From positions 1-42,330 of IMG/VR virus record IMGVR_UViG_3300032309_000906: a stretch of 42,330 bases of DNA; one strand, 5' to 3'. Source of the DNA: a virus. The notes beneath the pieces were generated by a model. It did no database searches and was not told the DNA's origin. It saw only the letters and a program-made list of their open reading frames with translations. The position numbers and the translations under genes are program-made. This document shows positions 2,539 to 37,614 of this stretch, piece after piece; positions within the stretch are counted from its first letter, which is position 1, and each line of letters opens with the position of its first letter.

Positions 2539-2871
2539 TTATGCGGCAACTGGTGGCGTTGCTTGTAGCCATACATCTGTCCAGTCACCATCTATACCGC
2601 ACCAGTAGGCAGGTGTCTGACCGCGATACTTGCCTGAGCGTTGTGCCACAATTCTCAAACCATCAATGCTGGCTTGGATAGTGTATTGACCACCACGCTG
2701 TATCATGTAAATCTGACGAGCAAATGGATCTAGCCCTGTCTTTTGTGCATGGTGTAAGAAAATTGCTAGGTCGCCTTTGGGTGCATTACCTAGACCGATC
2801 TGCTTAAGTGCCGCAAGTTGTTTATCATCCCAAAACCCTTGGTCACTTTTTACTGCGAGTTCATTACTCAT
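2539..2871 (-). CDS. recT: Bet/RecT-type single-strand annealing protein, N-terminal part (ends at in-frame TAA)
   Basis: The product is 110 residues from an ATG with AAGGCG upstream. It contains the Bet/RecT signatures KTGLDPFARQIYMIQR, YTIQASIDGLRIVAQRSGKYRGQ and WTDVWLQ. Annealases of this family coat ssDNA and pair it with homologous strands, usually beside an exonuclease. Here a RecB/Cas4-like nuclease lies four kilobases downstream in the same leftward block. The frame ends at TAA 2541-2539 inside the conserved core, and the rest of the family's core follows immediately in the same frame. A single A-to-T change from a Lys codon AAA would explain it. Confidence 0.8.
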   Translation of the reverse strand: MSNELAVKSDQGFWDDKQLAALKQIGLGNAPKGDLAIFLHHAQKTGLDPFARQIYMIQRGGQYTIQASIDGLRIVAQRSGKYRGQTPAYWCGIDGDWTDVWLQATPPVAA

Positions 2872-26901: not shown

Positions 26902-28245
26902 TTACTTAGATTCTGCTGGGGTATTCGCTTTAGCAAGAAAATCTTTTGCCATTTCGCGGTAACCTTTTGCTAGAACCTTGTCGGTAGTGGCAGATGCTTT
27001 GGCTAGATAAATATCAGCCTTTGCTTTCCACTCGGATAGTTGTTTTTCGCCTGTCGCTATGGCAGATCGTTTAGGACCGCCACCTCTTGCGAGAGATTTT
27101 GCCGTTGCTAGTTCAGTTTCTAATTGGTTAGCCTTGTTCTCTACCGCCTCGTTTGCGGATTTCAACGTAGCAACTTCTTTTTCTACCGACTTCATAGCAC
27201 TCTTTACGGCTTTCTCAATGATACTGTTTAAGTCAGTATCAGCGAGCAGGGACTTACTCGTTTCGGGTTCAACCTCAACGAATTCTTCGATTGTTTCTTC
27301 AGTTACAGATGGCAACACTTCAATAGTTGAAGGTGGCACAATAGTATCTACTGACTTTGGTGTTTCTGTTGGGCTGATCATTGTTGCTGTTGATACATCA
27401 GTACGACCATGAGCATTAGCAGGTTGATCGCAACCGCACTCAAGGCACTTATGTGCATCTAATGACTTATCAGCCATTGAATTATCTTCTACTACAATTT
27501 CTTTCTTTGCTTCACCAAGTTCATGCTCAGCCCCACTACCAGCAGGACCTTCAGCAGTTTCTTGTTCAGCACTTTCGCCGTATTGTTTTTCAATATCGTC
27601 ATAACCGTATTCTTTGCACATTGACTTACATTCGTCAAATGCTCTTTTTGCCATGGCATAGCGCTCAGTCATTTCTTCGCGTGAAGGAACTGACTTTGCT
27701 TCACCGTTCATAGGCATTTCTGTTTCGTGCATTTCTTTTTCTATGGTCGTTTCCACTAGTTCCTCTACTTTCACTAACGAAGTTTCACCTTCAACAGACT
27801 TAGCCAATACTAACTGGCAGTTAGGATTTGCTGGGCGATCTACTAGGCTTACTTCTACAATTTGACCGTCAATAATTCTTCCATTGACCGCCTTTGTATC
27901 TCGGACAACTCTAGGTGCCCGAATTCCGATTGAGAAGCCCTTGAGGACACCAGTTTCTACTTTTCTTACAGAAACAGGATCTACTACTAGGGCTGAGATG
28001 TAATGTCCATCTGACTTTGCTTCATATTCTTTTGCCACACCTGCGGCGATATTGCTGTGCTGTTCTCTGATATTGCCACCAGTCATAAACCACTCTGGCA
28101 TAGCACGGCTTAACCAAGCATCATCAGCAATTTGTTGATCAATGTCTAGGCTGTCGTCTGTTGCTTTGCCATAGACAGTAAGTGTGCCATCATCATTTTT
28201 ATTTGTCTTGACGATTTGAGCGTAGGTGGTTGCTAGGTTTTCCAT
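26902..28245 (-). CDS. Prohead protease fused to scaffold-like C-terminus
   Basis: The 447-residue protein has the HK97-type (S78-like) protease pattern in its first 150 residues: His63 in REQHSN, Ser105 in GFSIGIR and the EVSLVDRPANPNC segment (about 131-143). Then come a Glu-rich linker, a short Cys cluster (CLECGCD, about 264-270) and a C-terminal coiled coil (about 345-385). That tail looks like an internal scaffold, so protease and scaffold seem to be one gene. It precedes the capsid gene directly. Confidence 0.8.
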   Translation of the reverse strand: MENLATTYAQIVKTNKNDDGTLTVYGKATDDSLDIDQQIADDAWLSRAMPEWFMTGGNIREQHSNIAAGVAKEYEAKSDGHYISALVVDPVSVRKVETGVLKGFSIGIRAPRVVRDTKAVNGRIIDGQIVEVSLVDRPANPNCQLVLAKSVEGETSLVKVEELVETTIEKEMHETEMPMNGEAKSVPSREEMTERYAMAKRAFDECKSMCKEYGYDDIEKQYGESAEQETAEGPAGSGAEHELGEAKKEIVVEDNSMADKSLDAHKCLECGCDQPANAHGRTDVSTATMISPTETPKSVDTIVPPSTIEVLPSVTEETIEEFVEVEPETSKSLLADTDLNSIIEKAVKSAMKSVEKEVATLKSANEAVENKANQLETELATAKSLARGGGPKRSAIATGEKQLSEWKAKADIYLAKASATTDKVLAKGYREMAKDFLAKANTPAESK

Positions 28246-32980: not shown

Positions 32981-33324
32981 GTTCGGGTCACCTGTGGGCT
33001 CACTTCTACTGTTCCTTGAACAAGTCGGGTTACTACATTTGCTGGTGAAGTAATTTCTAAGTCATAGGCATACTTACCATTTGTAATTGCTGTAGTTTGT
33101 GTCGCTGTTGCACGAACAGCAAGTGTGCCTGTTGCACCTGTAATAGTTATACCATTTCCATTAGTTAAACTCAACACAGTAGTTTTTGCTAATGGTGAAG
33201 TTCTAATCTGTAATGCGGCGGTATAACCAGTTATGTTTACTGCTGTGCCGTTTGGGTTTTCATAAATAAAAGTAATAAACCAGTCAGCCCCTTGATCAAT
33301 AGTGGTGTTATAAGTTACTGCCAC
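32977..33324 (-). CDS. Small beta-domain virion protein
   Basis: GTG 33324 has GGAGAG upstream and overlaps the terminase gene by 17 bases. The 115-residue protein opens TIDQGADWFITFIYENPNGTAVNITGYTAALQIR, a small beta-sandwich pattern common in phage fibre or baseplate accessory proteins. It probably works with the next two genes. Confidence 0.65.
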   Translation of the reverse strand: MAVTYNTTIDQGADWFITFIYENPNGTAVNITGYTAALQIRTSPLAKTTVLSLTNGNGITITGATGTLAVRATATQTTAITNGKYAYDLEITSPANVVTRLVQGTVEVSPQVTRT

Positions 33325-34657
33325 TACTCTCTCCTAACGCTTGATTACAATAAACACAAATTACTTCTGTTTTTTTATTTGGCATCTTACATGCTGGGCA
33401 TATAGTAGCCATGCTTGCAAGGACTGCTTGAGAACTTGAGCCATCTTTCAATTCTGTTAATGCCCAGACTAAGGCATCTAGCCTATCAGGACTTTGTCTG
33501 CTTTCTGGTGTCCAAGTGACCATCTGGTCTTCTAACTTAGAAAACATACCAACATGGTGAACTCTGCCTTGCTCATATAATGCAGATATTGGCTCAGCCC
33601 TTAATTGCTTACCCCTTGAGGCAACAACTTTCTTTACAGGGACTAATCTATCAACTTGCTGGATGGTTGCAATAATCATGTCGCCGCCATTATTTGTCTC
33701 AGCAATAATCTTATCAGCCGACCAATCGTTAAAGGCTTGAACAGCCCTACGACCCCAACCGTCAGGTGTTGCTTTAAGTGTTGCATCTTCAAGCACATAA
33801 AAGTGCCCTTCAGATGTTGCACCTGCAACAACTATTCCAGTTTCATCACTATCTTCATTAGAAGTAACTGCTGGGTCAATGGCTACAACTATGCGGTATA
33901 GAGGTGGCATGTCTTTAGGTTCAAGGCGTTTATCTTCTATCCATGCCCTTGTCCAAAGTGCACCTTCCATGTCTTCAAGTAACTCACCTTGAAGTTCTTG
34001 CCGACCAAGGCGAGTATTTCCATACCTTGCCTCAAGTTCAGCGAGCGCAGTAGAAGCAAGATTGGCTCTGTTTTCATAGGTTGAGCCTCTAGTTATTACT
34101 GCATTATCTCGTTTTAATAAATTCTTTAGTAATGGAACAGGTTTAGGAGTTGTGGTTATAACTGTCTGTGGGCGCTCGCCTAAGCGTAATCCAAACTGTA
34201 ATTGATCATACGCCTCAGGTCTTATCCATGCCGCTAACTCATCACACCATGCCCCATGATGCTGAGGACCTCTAAGTCGGTCAGGCTCTTCAGCCGAGAA
34301 CAATTTAATTCTTGACCCATTGGTTAAAAGAATTTCACCTATTGAGCGATTCCAGTTAGCAAGTGCTTTGTATCTATTCAGAATATTAATTAAACCCGAT
34401 TCACCTTCAGCACATGTATCTCTAGCATCGGCAAATGTAGGCGCGACAACAGCCCATCTAGTTCTGTCTTGTGTAATTGCATGGTGAGCAATCCACTCAG
34501 CCCCAGTACGAGTTTTACCCCAACCACGACCAGACATGATAAGCCAAGTTAACCAATCCCCTTCGGGTGGTATTTGGTTCTCACGAGCATCTTCAAGCCA
34601 AAGTAGGCGAGATGCCACCATCCAGTCTGCTGGCGTCAGTTCTGTTTCTAGCGACAA
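33308..34657 (-). CDS. terL: Terminase large subunit with C-terminal zinc ribbon
   Basis: The 449-residue product (TTG 34657) has a Walker A (GRGWGKTRT, 43-51), Walker B (WCDE, D139 E140) and motif III (VITTTPKP). RNase H-type nuclease acids are candidates at D261 (VVAIDPAV), E320 (IIAETNNGGD) and D394 (SPDRLDALVWAL). After the nuclease fold it carries C420-x2-C423 and C434-x2-C437, a zinc ribbon not usual in this family. It packages DNA into the procapsid and cuts it. The overlap with TerS is 65 bases. Confidence 0.92.
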   Translation of the reverse strand: MSLETELTPADWMVASRLLWLEDARENQIPPEGDWLTWLIMSGRGWGKTRTGAEWIAHHAITQDRTRWAVVAPTFADARDTCAEGESGLINILNRYKALANWNRSIGEILLTNGSRIKLFSAEEPDRLRGPQHHGAWCDELAAWIRPEAYDQLQFGLRLGERPQTVITTTPKPVPLLKNLLKRDNAVITRGSTYENRANLASTALAELEARYGNTRLGRQELQGELLEDMEGALWTRAWIEDKRLEPKDMPPLYRIVVAIDPAVTSNEDSDETGIVVAGATSEGHFYVLEDATLKATPDGWGRRAVQAFNDWSADKIIAETNNGGDMIIATIQQVDRLVPVKKVVASRGKQLRAEPISALYEQGRVHHVGMFSKLEDQMVTWTPESRQSPDRLDALVWALTELKDGSSSQAVLASMATICPACKMPNKKTEVICVYCNQALGESSGSNL

Positions 34658-35102
34658 GGTGTGCTAACTCTTTAACTCTCTGATCAATTTCACTACCGCC
34701 TTCATAGATAGTTACATCGTGCTTTACTTTTGTTTCATCAAGACCAAGATACTTGGCTCGTCTATCCATAATCTTAAGAACCATTACTGAGGCTTGCTGT
34801 GCCGCATTTGGATCATTTTTATTAAGTGCCCTTGGGAACCAGTATTGTGCAAGTCTATCTAATCGCTCTCGCTCTTGAGTTCTGATCTCATCAGCAGGTT
34901 CTTGAAGTGTCCGCTTTAATGCTCTTTCGTAAGCATTGTATGCGGCACCTTTAGAAGCATATCCAACAGCCTTAGCAATATCATCCCACTTTACATGGGC
35001 AAGTCTTAATTCTAAGACCCGTCTTTCTTTTTCAATTACTTCATGTAAAGATGCTCTGCGCCTTTTCGGTTTTACTAGAACAGGCTCAAGGTTTGATTCC
35101 AT
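34593..35102 (-). CDS. terS: Terminase small subunit
   Basis: The 169-residue protein has a basic start (KPKRRRASLHEVIEKE), then an HTH-like LAHVKWDDIAKAVGYASKGAAYNAYERALKRTL. A helical region with RERLDRLAQYWFPRAL ... VMVLKIMDRRAKYLGLDE follows, typical of small terminase subunits of actinophages. It recognises packaging DNA and loads TerL. GGAAGG precedes the ATG. Confidence 0.8.
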   Translation of the reverse strand: MESNLEPVLVKPKRRRASLHEVIEKERRVLELRLAHVKWDDIAKAVGYASKGAAYNAYERALKRTLQEPADEIRTQERERLDRLAQYWFPRALNKNDPNAAQQASVMVLKIMDRRAKYLGLDETKVKHDVTIYEGGSEIDQRVKELAHLVARNRTDASRLDGGISPTLA

Positions 35103-35125: not shown

Positions 35126-35284
35126 TTACAGTAGCAGAGTAGTCACCATATAACCTAGCCATATTCCAAAGATTGCGAGTATGCCAATAATAGAAGTAGG
35201 AGCAGGGAGAGGAAGTTTTAACCATGTAGTTAATACTCCCAATCCCATGCCCACAACTAAGGCAAGGAAGCCTTGTTTAATCAT
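35126..35284 (-). CDS. XapX-domain (DUF1427-like) membrane protein
   Basis: I start at ATG 35284, which overlaps the transporter stop by one base (TAATG). The 52-residue product has two transmembrane helices with GLGVLTTWLKLPLPAPTSIIGILAIFGIWLG. This matches the pattern of the XapX/DUF1427 family (two helices around a Leu/Pro-rich, Pro-Ala-Pro turn). That family's role is unsettled. The coupled position suggests a partner of the precursor transporter, or a small membrane accessory. Confidence 0.7.
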   Translation of the reverse strand: MIKQGFLALVVGMGLGVLTTWLKLPLPAPTSIIGILAIFGIWLGYMVTTLLL

Positions 35285-35952
35285 TAACGAATTTGACCAT
35301 CTAATGTCCACTCATGCTTTGGTCGCACTCCATAAATAAGTGGAAGGCTGATCACAGCAATAGCAAGTTTAATCCACACCATTGACCAGAATATTGCAAA
35401 AACTACACTTAATGGCATTAAGCCATAAAATGCAATAAAGGCAAATACTAAAGAATCAATCGGTGAAGATACAGCATTTGAAGATAAAACTCTGCCCCAT
35501 TGGTATTTCTGACCAAATCTTTGAACCCACTTTGAGTAAACGGCGGTATCAATAAGTTCAGCAATAACCATGGCAACGATAGATGCAAGGACTATGCGCC
35601 ATTGAGGTCCTAGAACCTTGACCCACTCTGTTTGCTCACCAACAGCCATGTCGGGGGATAGATTTGCTACTACCCAGTAGTAACCTGCCATGAGCAGATT
35701 TACAAATGCACCAACAAAAATTGCTACTTTTGCGGCTGATCTACCTGCTACTTTGTGTATAACATCTCGTAGAGTAAATGTAATTGGATAGATTAATGTG
35801 CCAGCATCTAATGACCAACCAAATACTTCAACAATTCTTAGTGAAGCAACATTAGCAATTAATGTCGAGGCTAAATAGATTCCAGTTACTGCTATTAAAA
35901 TGGCTATCCAAACGCTATTTACTTTTGGTTGCCTTTCTTGTGCCTTTTCCAT
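35284..35952 (-). CDS. yhhQ: YhhQ/VUT-family queuosine precursor (7-deazaguanine) transporter
   Basis: The 222-residue integral membrane protein has about six helices and family signatures: YPITFTLRDVIHKVAGR (55-71), AELIDTAVYSKW (131-142) and SSNAVSSPIDSLVFAFIAF (157-175). Known relatives import preQ0 and preQ1 across the inner membrane. AAGGAG precedes the ATG, and a GC-rich hairpin lies just before it. Following DpdA and a ParB-like gene, it probably feeds base for DNA modification. No de novo preQ0 genes (folE, queD, queE, queC) occur in the window. Confidence 0.9.
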   Translation of the reverse strand: MEKAQERQPKVNSVWIAILIAVTGIYLASTLIANVASLRIVEVFGWSLDAGTLIYPITFTLRDVIHKVAGRSAAKVAIFVGAFVNLLMAGYYWVVANLSPDMAVGEQTEWVKVLGPQWRIVLASIVAMVIAELIDTAVYSKWVQRFGQKYQWGRVLSSNAVSSPIDSLVFAFIAFYGLMPLSVVFAIFWSMVWIKLAIAVISLPLIYGVRPKHEWTLDGQIR

Positions 35953-35972
35953 GTTTCTCCTTGGTTTTGGTA

Positions 35973-35996
35973 ACGGGGGCGGACTACGAACCCCGT
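35973..35996 (-). promoter_or_regulatory. Hairpin leader before the deazaguanine transporter
   Basis: On the complement ACGGGG (35996-35991) and CCCCGT (35978-35973) flank a 12-base loop, TTCGTAGTCCGC. An A-rich tail and the AAGGAG site follow. The order stem, GG-TTC-TAG-like loop, A-rich tail and Shine-Dalgarno resembles a preQ1-I riboswitch. The expected CTA partner in the tail is missing, so this is a suggestion only. Confidence 0.3.
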
Positions 35997-36003
35997 CTTA
36001 TGC

Positions 36004-36678
36004 TTAGAGCGTTTCGCTCTTTGCAATAAGTTTAGTTATTAAAGCACCTGCCGCAAGTTTTGTATCGGTAGGTAACTCATTCTTGTTTTCATACAGCATT
36101 GACTTCCACTTTAATCCTGTTTCAGGATTTAATACTGCACTAATTTTATAATCGCCACCCTCACCATCATCTTCAAATTCATTTGTGGTTATTGGTGTGT
36201 CTAAAGCATCCCAACTAAATGAGGCAATTTCCATTAATTCATTTAATTGAGTTTCCGTGTATGGTAACCCCACAGCAAGGTCGTCAGGCAAATCCACTTT
36301 AATCTCAGCGAGCAAGGCTCCCAACTTAGCAAAGTCAGCCCTGCCCCGTGTCTCGTTCATTATGATCGTAAGTTTTTTAGCATTCGCGTCATCTACATCT
36401 ATGACGATTGCGGGAATTTGACCTAACTTTACTAAGTCAGGAACGTTTCTTTTACCTTCTATTTTCTTTTCAATAATTTCTTTTAATGCTTTTAATCTAT
36501 GCTCACCATCAATAATCTGGTAATGATCATCAATAGCCCTAACTAAAATTGGTGCAAGAAAACCATTGTTAGAAATAGATTCTATTTCAGCGTTAAATTG
36601 TTGCTCATTTTGAACATTTGGATTCCATGGATTAGGTTCTACTTTATTAATCTTAAGTAAAGACACTTCTAAATTCAT
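36004..36678 (-). CDS. ParB-like nuclease-fold protein (DpdB-like candidate)
   Basis: The 224-residue protein has the ParB/Srx N-terminal fold: VSLLKINKVEPNPWNPN, a Q-x-L-like box (NNGFLAPILVRA), IIDGEHRLKALKEI (55-68) and IIMNETRG (105-112). The C-terminal half is acidic and unassigned. In bacterial dpd clusters a ParB-like ATPase, DpdB, works with DpdA to insert preQ0 in DNA. It starts one base after the DpdA stop. A ParB-like role in binding or hydrolysing a nucleotide in that reaction is the best inference. Confidence 0.75.
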   Translation of the reverse strand: MNLEVSLLKINKVEPNPWNPNVQNEQQFNAEIESISNNGFLAPILVRAIDDHYQIIDGEHRLKALKEIIEKKIEGKRNVPDLVKLGQIPAIVIDVDDANAKKLTIIMNETRGRADFAKLGALLAEIKVDLPDDLAVGLPYTETQLNELMEIASFSWDALDTPITTNEFEDDGEGGDYKISAVLNPETGLKWKSMLYENKNELPTDTKLAAGALITKLIAKSETL

Positions 36679-36679
36679 T

Positions 36680-37504
36680 TTAATCCTTCCACTTTACACC
36701 TCGTTGTTCCCATAAAGAAGTAATGCCTGTGCCTACATGAGCATAACTCTCAACAGATTTTCTTAAGCCAACCAATACTGCTTCCTTGCTATTTAATTCA
36801 CCTGACTTTGGAATTATTGCGTCAAGTTTTTTTGCTTTGCCCCACTCGGTAATGTATTGACCAAATCTCATTGAGGTTGTCCATGTTGAACTATCTACTG
36901 AGTAATATGGAAAAGACTTCATGCTGTCTAATGCAGTAACTGCTAATCCATGTGTCTTTGGTAAATTTTCAAAACCATAACGTTGGTATAAATGTCTTAA
37001 TACTAAATTCTGCCACTCAATTCTTGATTTAAGTGATACATCATTTCGCGGAGATATTCCAAGAATACTACCAACAGGTAATCTATCTAAAAGTGTATCC
37101 AAGAAAACTTGTGGTTCATCTTGGTGATAAACTTCCATAACCTCTAACCCTTTAGAACGCAAGTAGTCGGCATTGATCAACGACTGCTTCATACCTTCTA
37201 TTCGTTCTTTTTTTGTTGAGGTTCTTCCTGCCTCTCCTGGTATAACATCTAAATTGACAGCTACAACTTTTTTTGCTTTGTGTTGATTAGCGAGCGCCCA
37301 TGTTGCATAAGCATCTATATCTACTTGCTTGCCTGTATTCCATGCTGTAAATGCACCACTATCTAAAATTAAATACTCAGGGTGGTAAGTAATATCAGCA
37401 AGTATTTTTGAATAAGCAAAACTAACTAAAATGTTTGGTGCTTTAAGATCGTTCATTAAAATTATTTGGTAAGGGTTCATACCTAGCGCAAAAGTTAAGC
37501 GCAT
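36680..37504 (-). CDS. dpdA: DpdA-like DNA transglycosylase (TGT superfamily)
   Basis: The 274-residue protein shows the TGT-type barrel: ILDSGAFTAW (46-55, D48), VAVNLDVIPG (81-90), GISPR (149-153), THGLAV (185-190) and YYSVDSSTW (200-208). D204 is a good nucleophile candidate. DpdA proteins exchange guanine in DNA for a 7-deazaguanine; their relative TGT does so in tRNA. The protein is shorter than bacterial tRNA TGT and has no zinc site, fitting phage DpdA types. It heads the DpdA-ParB-YhhQ-XapX run. AAGGTG precedes its ATG. Confidence 0.85.
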   Translation of the reverse strand: MRLTFALGMNPYQIILMNDLKAPNILVSFAYSKILADITYHPEYLILDSGAFTAWNTGKQVDIDAYATWALANQHKAKKVVAVNLDVIPGEAGRTSTKKERIEGMKQSLINADYLRSKGLEVMEVYHQDEPQVFLDTLLDRLPVGSILGISPRNDVSLKSRIEWQNLVLRHLYQRYGFENLPKTHGLAVTALDSMKSFPYYSVDSSTWTTSMRFGQYITEWGKAKKLDAIIPKSGELNSKEAVLVGLRKSVESYAHVGTGITSLWEQRGVKWKD

Positions 37505-37523
37505 TTCTACACCTTCACAACGA

Positions 37524-37572
37524 GAGAAGTCTGCCCATTACAGAAAGGGTTTTGTAGATGGGCAGACCTCTC
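37524..37572. repeat. Long inverted repeat upstream of dpdA
   Basis: The 15-base arms GAGAAGTCTGCCCAT (37524-37538) and ATGGGCAGACCTCTC (37558-37572) pair with one G-U. An inner TACA/TGTA extends the stem. It lies between a candidate promoter and the dpdA start, so it could be a 5' leader hairpin or a protein-binding dyad. Confidence 0.8.
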
Positions 37573-37584
37573 CCATTGGCAGAA

Positions 37585-37614
37585 AGCATAACACATTTTC
37601 ACTCCGTTGGACAA
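37585..37614 (-). promoter_or_regulatory. Candidate promoter of the deazaguanine cassette
   Basis: On the complement TTGTCC (37614-37609), 18 bases, TATGCT (37590-37585). It overlaps the end of the HTH gene, and the long inverted repeat follows about 12 bases later. Confidence 0.5.

Follow-up and report, generated by a model that had tools for sequence, protein, structure and literature searches.

The window analysed here, IMG/VR record IMGVR_UViG_3300032309_000906 (42,330 bases, one tailed-phage record), carries what is quite likely a salvage-only 7-deazaguanine DNA-modification cassette, in which feedback-controlled import of a precursor would be followed by exchange of that base into the phage DNA. 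Its genes run dpdA, parB-like, yhhQ and xapX on the minus strand, and a preQ1-I riboswitch occupies the yhhQ leader. A gap of 1 nt separates dpdA from parB, the 51-nt gap between parB and yhhQ contains the riboswitch, and yhhQ and xapX overlap in a TAATG junction. The small and large terminase genes follow directly after xapX (33308–35102, minus strand) and served as the query for sibling phages; the other neighbours are genes for an SSB and an HTH protein. A preliminary description of this DNA had identified the four adjacent, coupled genes, and all four open reading frames are present as described except for the start of xapX; the riboswitch between parB and yhhQ had been overlooked.

Gene families of the cassette

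The DpdA-type protein (36680–37504, minus strand; 274 aa) matches phrog_887, a family named queuine tRNA-ribosyltransferase (E = 1e-34), and has homologues by tblastn in 181 phage records, including phage 9g (E = 3e-10), whose DpdA has been tested experimentally (PMC6884629). Its nearest relative among isolates is gp90 of Arthrobacter phage Mufasa8 (47.5% identity), and proteins from viral contigs are 50–57% identical. A scan of viral sequences with the single window protein returned nothing, and an alignment was needed to reach these relatives. An AlphaFold model built from 17 sequences (pLDDT 87.9, pTM 0.87) was searched with Foldseek, and all of the best 50 PDB matches listed are tRNA-guanine transglycosylases (TGTs; E = 2.5e-6 to 2e-5, TMq 0.51–0.67), with a TM-score by query of 0.67 against murine QTRT1. 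Only the fold search gave TGT: phmmer against PDB sequences retrieved none, no family in Pfam (the TGT family PF01702 included) or NCBIfam was matched, and neither was the PADLOC DpdA model. The preliminary description had called the protein a TGT-like transglycosylase with D204 as candidate nucleophile, and the predicted structure bears out the TGT fold. Both D204 and D48, the candidate catalytic aspartates, occur in 90 of 90 homologues, although the patterns used for scanning were themselves partly selective for these residues. The DSGA motif around D48 is similar to the DSGG of TGT, with which it aligns weakly, at a non-significant E value of 0.19 in hhalign. The protein contains no cysteine and therefore has no TGT-type zinc site.

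The interval that separates dpdA from the HTH gene upstream contains a very stable hairpin (37505–37598, minus strand; −47.2 kcal/mol, z = −8.3), which may be a leader, a terminator or an operator.

The ParB-like protein (36004–36678, minus strand; 224 aa) scores above the cut-off for PF02195 (E = 4.5e-12), matches phrog_723 (E = 1e-26) and carries a DGEHR motif. It is 44.7% identical to Mufasa8 gp91, which is encoded directly after the dpdA of that phage, and its match to the DndB-type domain PF14072 falls below the cut-off (E = 0.036). Gene order makes it a DpdB-like partner by position, as had been proposed. In four of the relatives (L013, L014, L015 and L016), dpdA is immediately preceded by another ParB-like gene, which is larger (about 390 aa).

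The preliminary assignment of a preQ0/preQ1-type transporter and a small membrane protein, XapX, is likewise supported by curated families. YhhQ (35284–35952, minus strand; 222 aa), a queuosine-precursor transporter of the QPTR family, exceeds the cut-offs of both PF02592 (E = 7e-38) and the equivalog TIGR00697 (E = 8e-32; 110.7 bits against 50.95). Members of this family differ in substrate, and the Escherichia coli QPTR transports both preQ0 and preQ1 (PMC11130926). XapX (35126–35284, minus strand; 52 aa) is above the cut-off for TIGR03510 (E = 3e-12; 45.9 bits against 27.8) and is 94% and 81% identical to its counterparts in the sibling contigs L097 and L098. We moved its start from the GTG at 35311 to the ATG at 35284 because the siblings start there (MIK) and because this ATG overlaps the yhhQ stop codon; the earlier start was probably placed 27 nt too far upstream.

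XapX recurs in other phage settings. Of 26 XapX-bearing viral contigs, nine have the gene inside or adjoining a dpdA/que cluster, at varying positions; four of these nine had fed the query and the remaining five represent three arrangements, to which L090 adds a further one. Viewed from the other side, XapX is present in 5 of 50 dpdA contigs and in none of 48 terminase relatives, siblings excluded from the latter. These counts support a general link between XapX and dpdA only moderately, and an accessory role of XapX in handling modified purines may be taken as a lead. Its recurrence raises the possibility that XapX is a so far unrecognised part of phage 7-deazaguanine pathways. Unrelated phage dpdA/que clusters with XapX inside them at differing positions are those of L021, L026, L090, L202, L212 and L215. 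In L195 (3289–5699), XapX is flanked by genes for a DNA-methyltransferase-like protein and a dATP/dGTP diphosphohydrolase, a setting that resembles purine modification.

A preQ1-I riboswitch before yhhQ

The element at 35955–36000 (minus strand) is, judged from its sequence and predicted structure, a preQ1-I riboswitch, and would bind preQ1 as its ligand. The match to RF00522 lies on the same strand as yhhQ, spans the whole model and scores 32.1 bits (E = 7.7e-4 in a 4-kb search space and 3.9e-5 in 201 nt), short of the curated gathering score of 39; Rfam run on the entire window at the default gathering threshold did not report it. Because the score is below this cut-off, the assignment is carried by structure, position and conservation. 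The P1 stem is (G)ACGGGG/CCCCGU(U), and the 3' end of the element coincides with AAGGAG (35957–35962), the Shine-Dalgarno sequence of yhhQ. In 8 of 8 copies read, the A-rich tail runs into the Shine-Dalgarno sequence of either yhhQ or queF.

The element is conserved in both sequence and placement. The window and its sibling L098 agree at 45 of 46 nt, and copies precede yhhQ in L098, L016, L017, L182, L183 and L185. In L018, which is without yhhQ, the riboswitch precedes queF, and a weaker copy, probably also before queF, exists in L014/L015; the copy in L016 is weak as well. The L017 type is very similar to the aptamer of Thermoanaerobacter tengcongensis, whose structure has been solved. Among nine aligned sequences, P1 positions pair in 97.8% of cells, against 71% after shuffling, and both sides change in three of the five P1 pairs; this alignment leans towards structure because it was fitted to a model, and the copy in the window was itself among the sequences behind the covariance model. 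The compensating changes are nonetheless seen in the raw sequences, as ACGGGG/CCCCGU, AUCGGG/CCCGAU and AUGGGG/CCCCAU. The covariation analysis covered P1 alone, and a simple loop-tail complement check, scoring P2 pairing by exact 3-mers, was uninformative for P2. Apart from two low-GC chance matches, no comparable element was detected in 52 control loci (760 kb; relatives and XapX phages), and isolate phages searched by blastn with the riboswitch sequence yielded nothing beyond partial matches at chance level.

Bacterial preQ1-I riboswitches hide the yhhQ Shine-Dalgarno sequence when preQ1 binds (PMC10622847, PMC11625349). A close known likeness is the type III preQ1-I riboswitch of E. coli, whose aptamer overlaps the yhhQ Shine-Dalgarno sequence as in the window; that type is bacterial and almost confined to proteobacteria (PMC10622847), whereas the present element is situated in a phage DNA-modification cassette. 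Within the literature searched, most subscription journals lying outside it, we found no report of a preQ1 riboswitch in any virus. Articles naming both preQ1 riboswitches and phages present no viral example in their titles or abstracts, a review of the preQ1 riboswitch family does not contain the words 'phage' or 'virus', and the one article among them on a phage (Seurat) does no more than cite a riboswitch review. The reported case of phage riboswitches is that of the glutamine riboswitches (PMC9004378); if the present assignment is true, preQ1 would be a further class on the short list of riboswitches recorded from phages.

Missing synthesis genes and a reduction series

As the preliminary description had stated, genes for preQ0 synthesis are missing: profiles made from annotated phage proteins (QueC, QueD, QueE, FolE, QueF, YhhQ, ParB and DpdA) were searched against all open reading frames of the window, and matched only the four cassette genes, with no queC, queD, queE, queF or folE. 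A fragment or misassembly as the source of this gap was ruled out by the clean TAATG junction and by the gene order of relatives. The genes at the two window ends (p114, p221; exonuclease) adjoin in L106, and L019 carries recT, p114, exonuclease, a replication gene, ssb, HTH, dpdA and parB in one piece. Because L019 and L106 join the end genes, synteny suggests that the window is near-complete, with little sequence missing.

Siblings identified by their terminase protein (95–99% identical) are available as short contigs, and those whose terminase is 95–97% identical retain queF-queC, or at least queF, ahead of xapX. The order in L098 is parB-yhhQ-queF-queC-xapX-terS-terL; in L097, a queF truncated where the contig stops is followed by xapX-terS-terL. 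More distant contigs hold the full order dpdA-parB-yhhQ-queF-queC-queD-queE-folE-terS-terL (L017/L184 and L185, with L182 and L183 lacking the start) or the same order minus yhhQ (L018 and L019). The 32-kb contig L016 carries dpdA-parB-yhhQ-queF-queC and lacks queD, queE and folE. Since siblings and relatives keep queF-queC or the full pathway, the window most likely lost its synthesis genes: in this comparison of gene orders it most likely ends a reduction series, its cassette deriving from a full-pathway ancestor through loss of queF-queC-queD-queE-folE. The sets with yhhQ-queF-queC and without queD, queE and folE, in L016/L181 (IMGVR_UViG_3300042554_000699) and L098, suggest that these phages draw on a pathway intermediate, for example CDG, or on a host-made precursor.

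Such losses could also mean that the cassette is a decaying remnant, in which case the phage DNA would receive little or none of the base and stay essentially unmodified. The retention of queF-queC, or at least queF, at the same spot in siblings is in keeping with this reading, as is Mycobacterium phage Orion, which has DpdA, no synthesis genes and unmodified DNA; Salmonella phage 7-11 contains only traces of dADG. We nevertheless regard a remnant as unlikely, given four intact open reading frames, catalytic aspartates that are kept, and signatures of purifying selection. The estimated dN/dS ratios point to purifying selection on the three genes analysed, at about 0.16–0.18 for yhhQ, about 0.04–0.05 for parB against L098 and 0.16–0.28 for xapX against the siblings; because the sibling compared still has queF-queC, these ratios span the loss and do not isolate selection after it. 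Moreover, the riboswitch keeps 45 of 46 nt relative to L098, while the yhhQ gene is 85.6% identical (84% for the protein).

Proposed mechanism and known systems

In the salvage reading that we prefer, the phage QPTR/YhhQ would bring preQ1, preQ0 or both into the infected cell, DpdA and its ParB-like partner would swap guanines of the phage DNA for the imported base, and the modified DNA would be shielded from restriction enzymes. The preQ1-I riboswitch would gate translation of the importer, which would be made when little free base is present and shut off when enough preQ1 hides the yhhQ Shine-Dalgarno sequence. Restriction protection by such bases has been demonstrated for phage CAjan and others (PMC6884629). 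The TGT fold, the phage DpdA family, the QPTR family and the missing synthesis genes agree with the salvage logic put forward in the preliminary description, which the riboswitch strengthens. Because the window is without QueF, the inserted base should equal the imported one; the riboswitch suggests that this would be preQ1, with preQ0 as the alternative. We further consider it probable that riboswitch feedback on the importer lets the virus tune how much of the base is available for modifying its DNA, so that modification would track the external base and siblings would differ in how much of the pathway they have kept.

The precursor might instead be made or held by the host, with the phage YhhQ topping up the pool, such that host synthesis would matter more than environmental salvage. 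Host-made preQ0 is one option raised for DpdA-only phages in Hutinet 2019 (PMC6884629), but a phage-encoded, dedicated importer that is coupled to a preQ1 sensor suggests that uptake counts, and gut Actinomycetota mostly do not have QueDECF (PMC11130926), a group to which the host may or may not belong; we hold this alternative to be quite doubtful. A tRNA-guanine transglycosylase working with a precursor importer to raise queuosine-type tRNA modification for translation would suit the TGT fold and the PHROG family name, but is highly improbable for a protein that has neither a PF01702 match nor a zinc site and whose gene adjoins parB, an arrangement also seen in phage DNA-modification clusters; nor are QueA, QueG and QueH found in viruses (PMC6884629).

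Salvage-only cassettes are not new in kind, and the preliminary view that this arrangement is little described holds in part. DpdA-only phages, phage YhhQ and the idea of precursor uptake already figure in Hutinet 2019 (PMC6884629), where 76 DpdA-only phages form group 3 and uptake of an exogenous precursor was proposed; these phages share with the window a DpdA without synthesis genes. The accessible text of the same paper ties phage YhhQ homologues to no group and reports no riboswitch. Two isolates are further precedents. Fusobacterium phage phiFN37 encodes ParB-DpdA-hypothetical-YhhQ, a salvage-only set with an importer like that of the window, and has no annotated or convincing que cluster in its whole 85-kb record; it differs in its distant proteins, its gene order, the extra gene between dpdA and yhhQ, and the lack of a riboswitch match. 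Sinorhizobium phage phiLM21 has a YhhQ-like gene directly after dpdA and no queC in its record, but its dpdA has no adjoining ParB and its YhhQ-like protein is short and below the TIGR00697 cut-off. The order dpdA-parB is also common to Mufasa8 (gp90–gp96, dpdA-parB-queF-like-queC-queD-queE-folE), which, unlike the window, has a full synthesis pathway and no match to yhhQ, xapX or the riboswitch. Bacterial dpd islands (dpdA–K) similarly combine DpdA with a ParB/DndB-like partner, and about 9% of them contain YhhQ (PMC11888242), but they include dpdC and a restriction operon, neither of which is found beside the window cassette.

New here are the preQ1-I riboswitch in the yhhQ leader, the reduction series and the recurrence of XapX in unrelated dpdA/que clusters. 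Hutinet 2019 did not settle whether the DNA of DpdA-only phages is modified, or what the origin of the base would be. With an importer, an inserting enzyme and a base sensor in one operon-like unit, and near-identical siblings that differ by queF and queC, this question becomes testable. If the proposed mechanism is true, it would link the protection of phage DNA to a micronutrient contested by host and community.

The assignment to an actinophage was not borne out, since terminase relatives among isolates are mixed. The nearest cellular YhhQ proteins are those of Acidimicrobiia MAGs (51–54% identity), and the nearest isolate by dpdA infects Arthrobacter. No tRNA genes are present in the window, and the protein at 26902–28245 and a tape-measure-sized protein gave little or no clue to the host. 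Elsewhere in the window, a RecT-like annealing protein is encoded as two adjacent open reading frames (2098–2538 and 2539–2871, minus strand), which may reflect a frameshift, a sequencing error or a real split.
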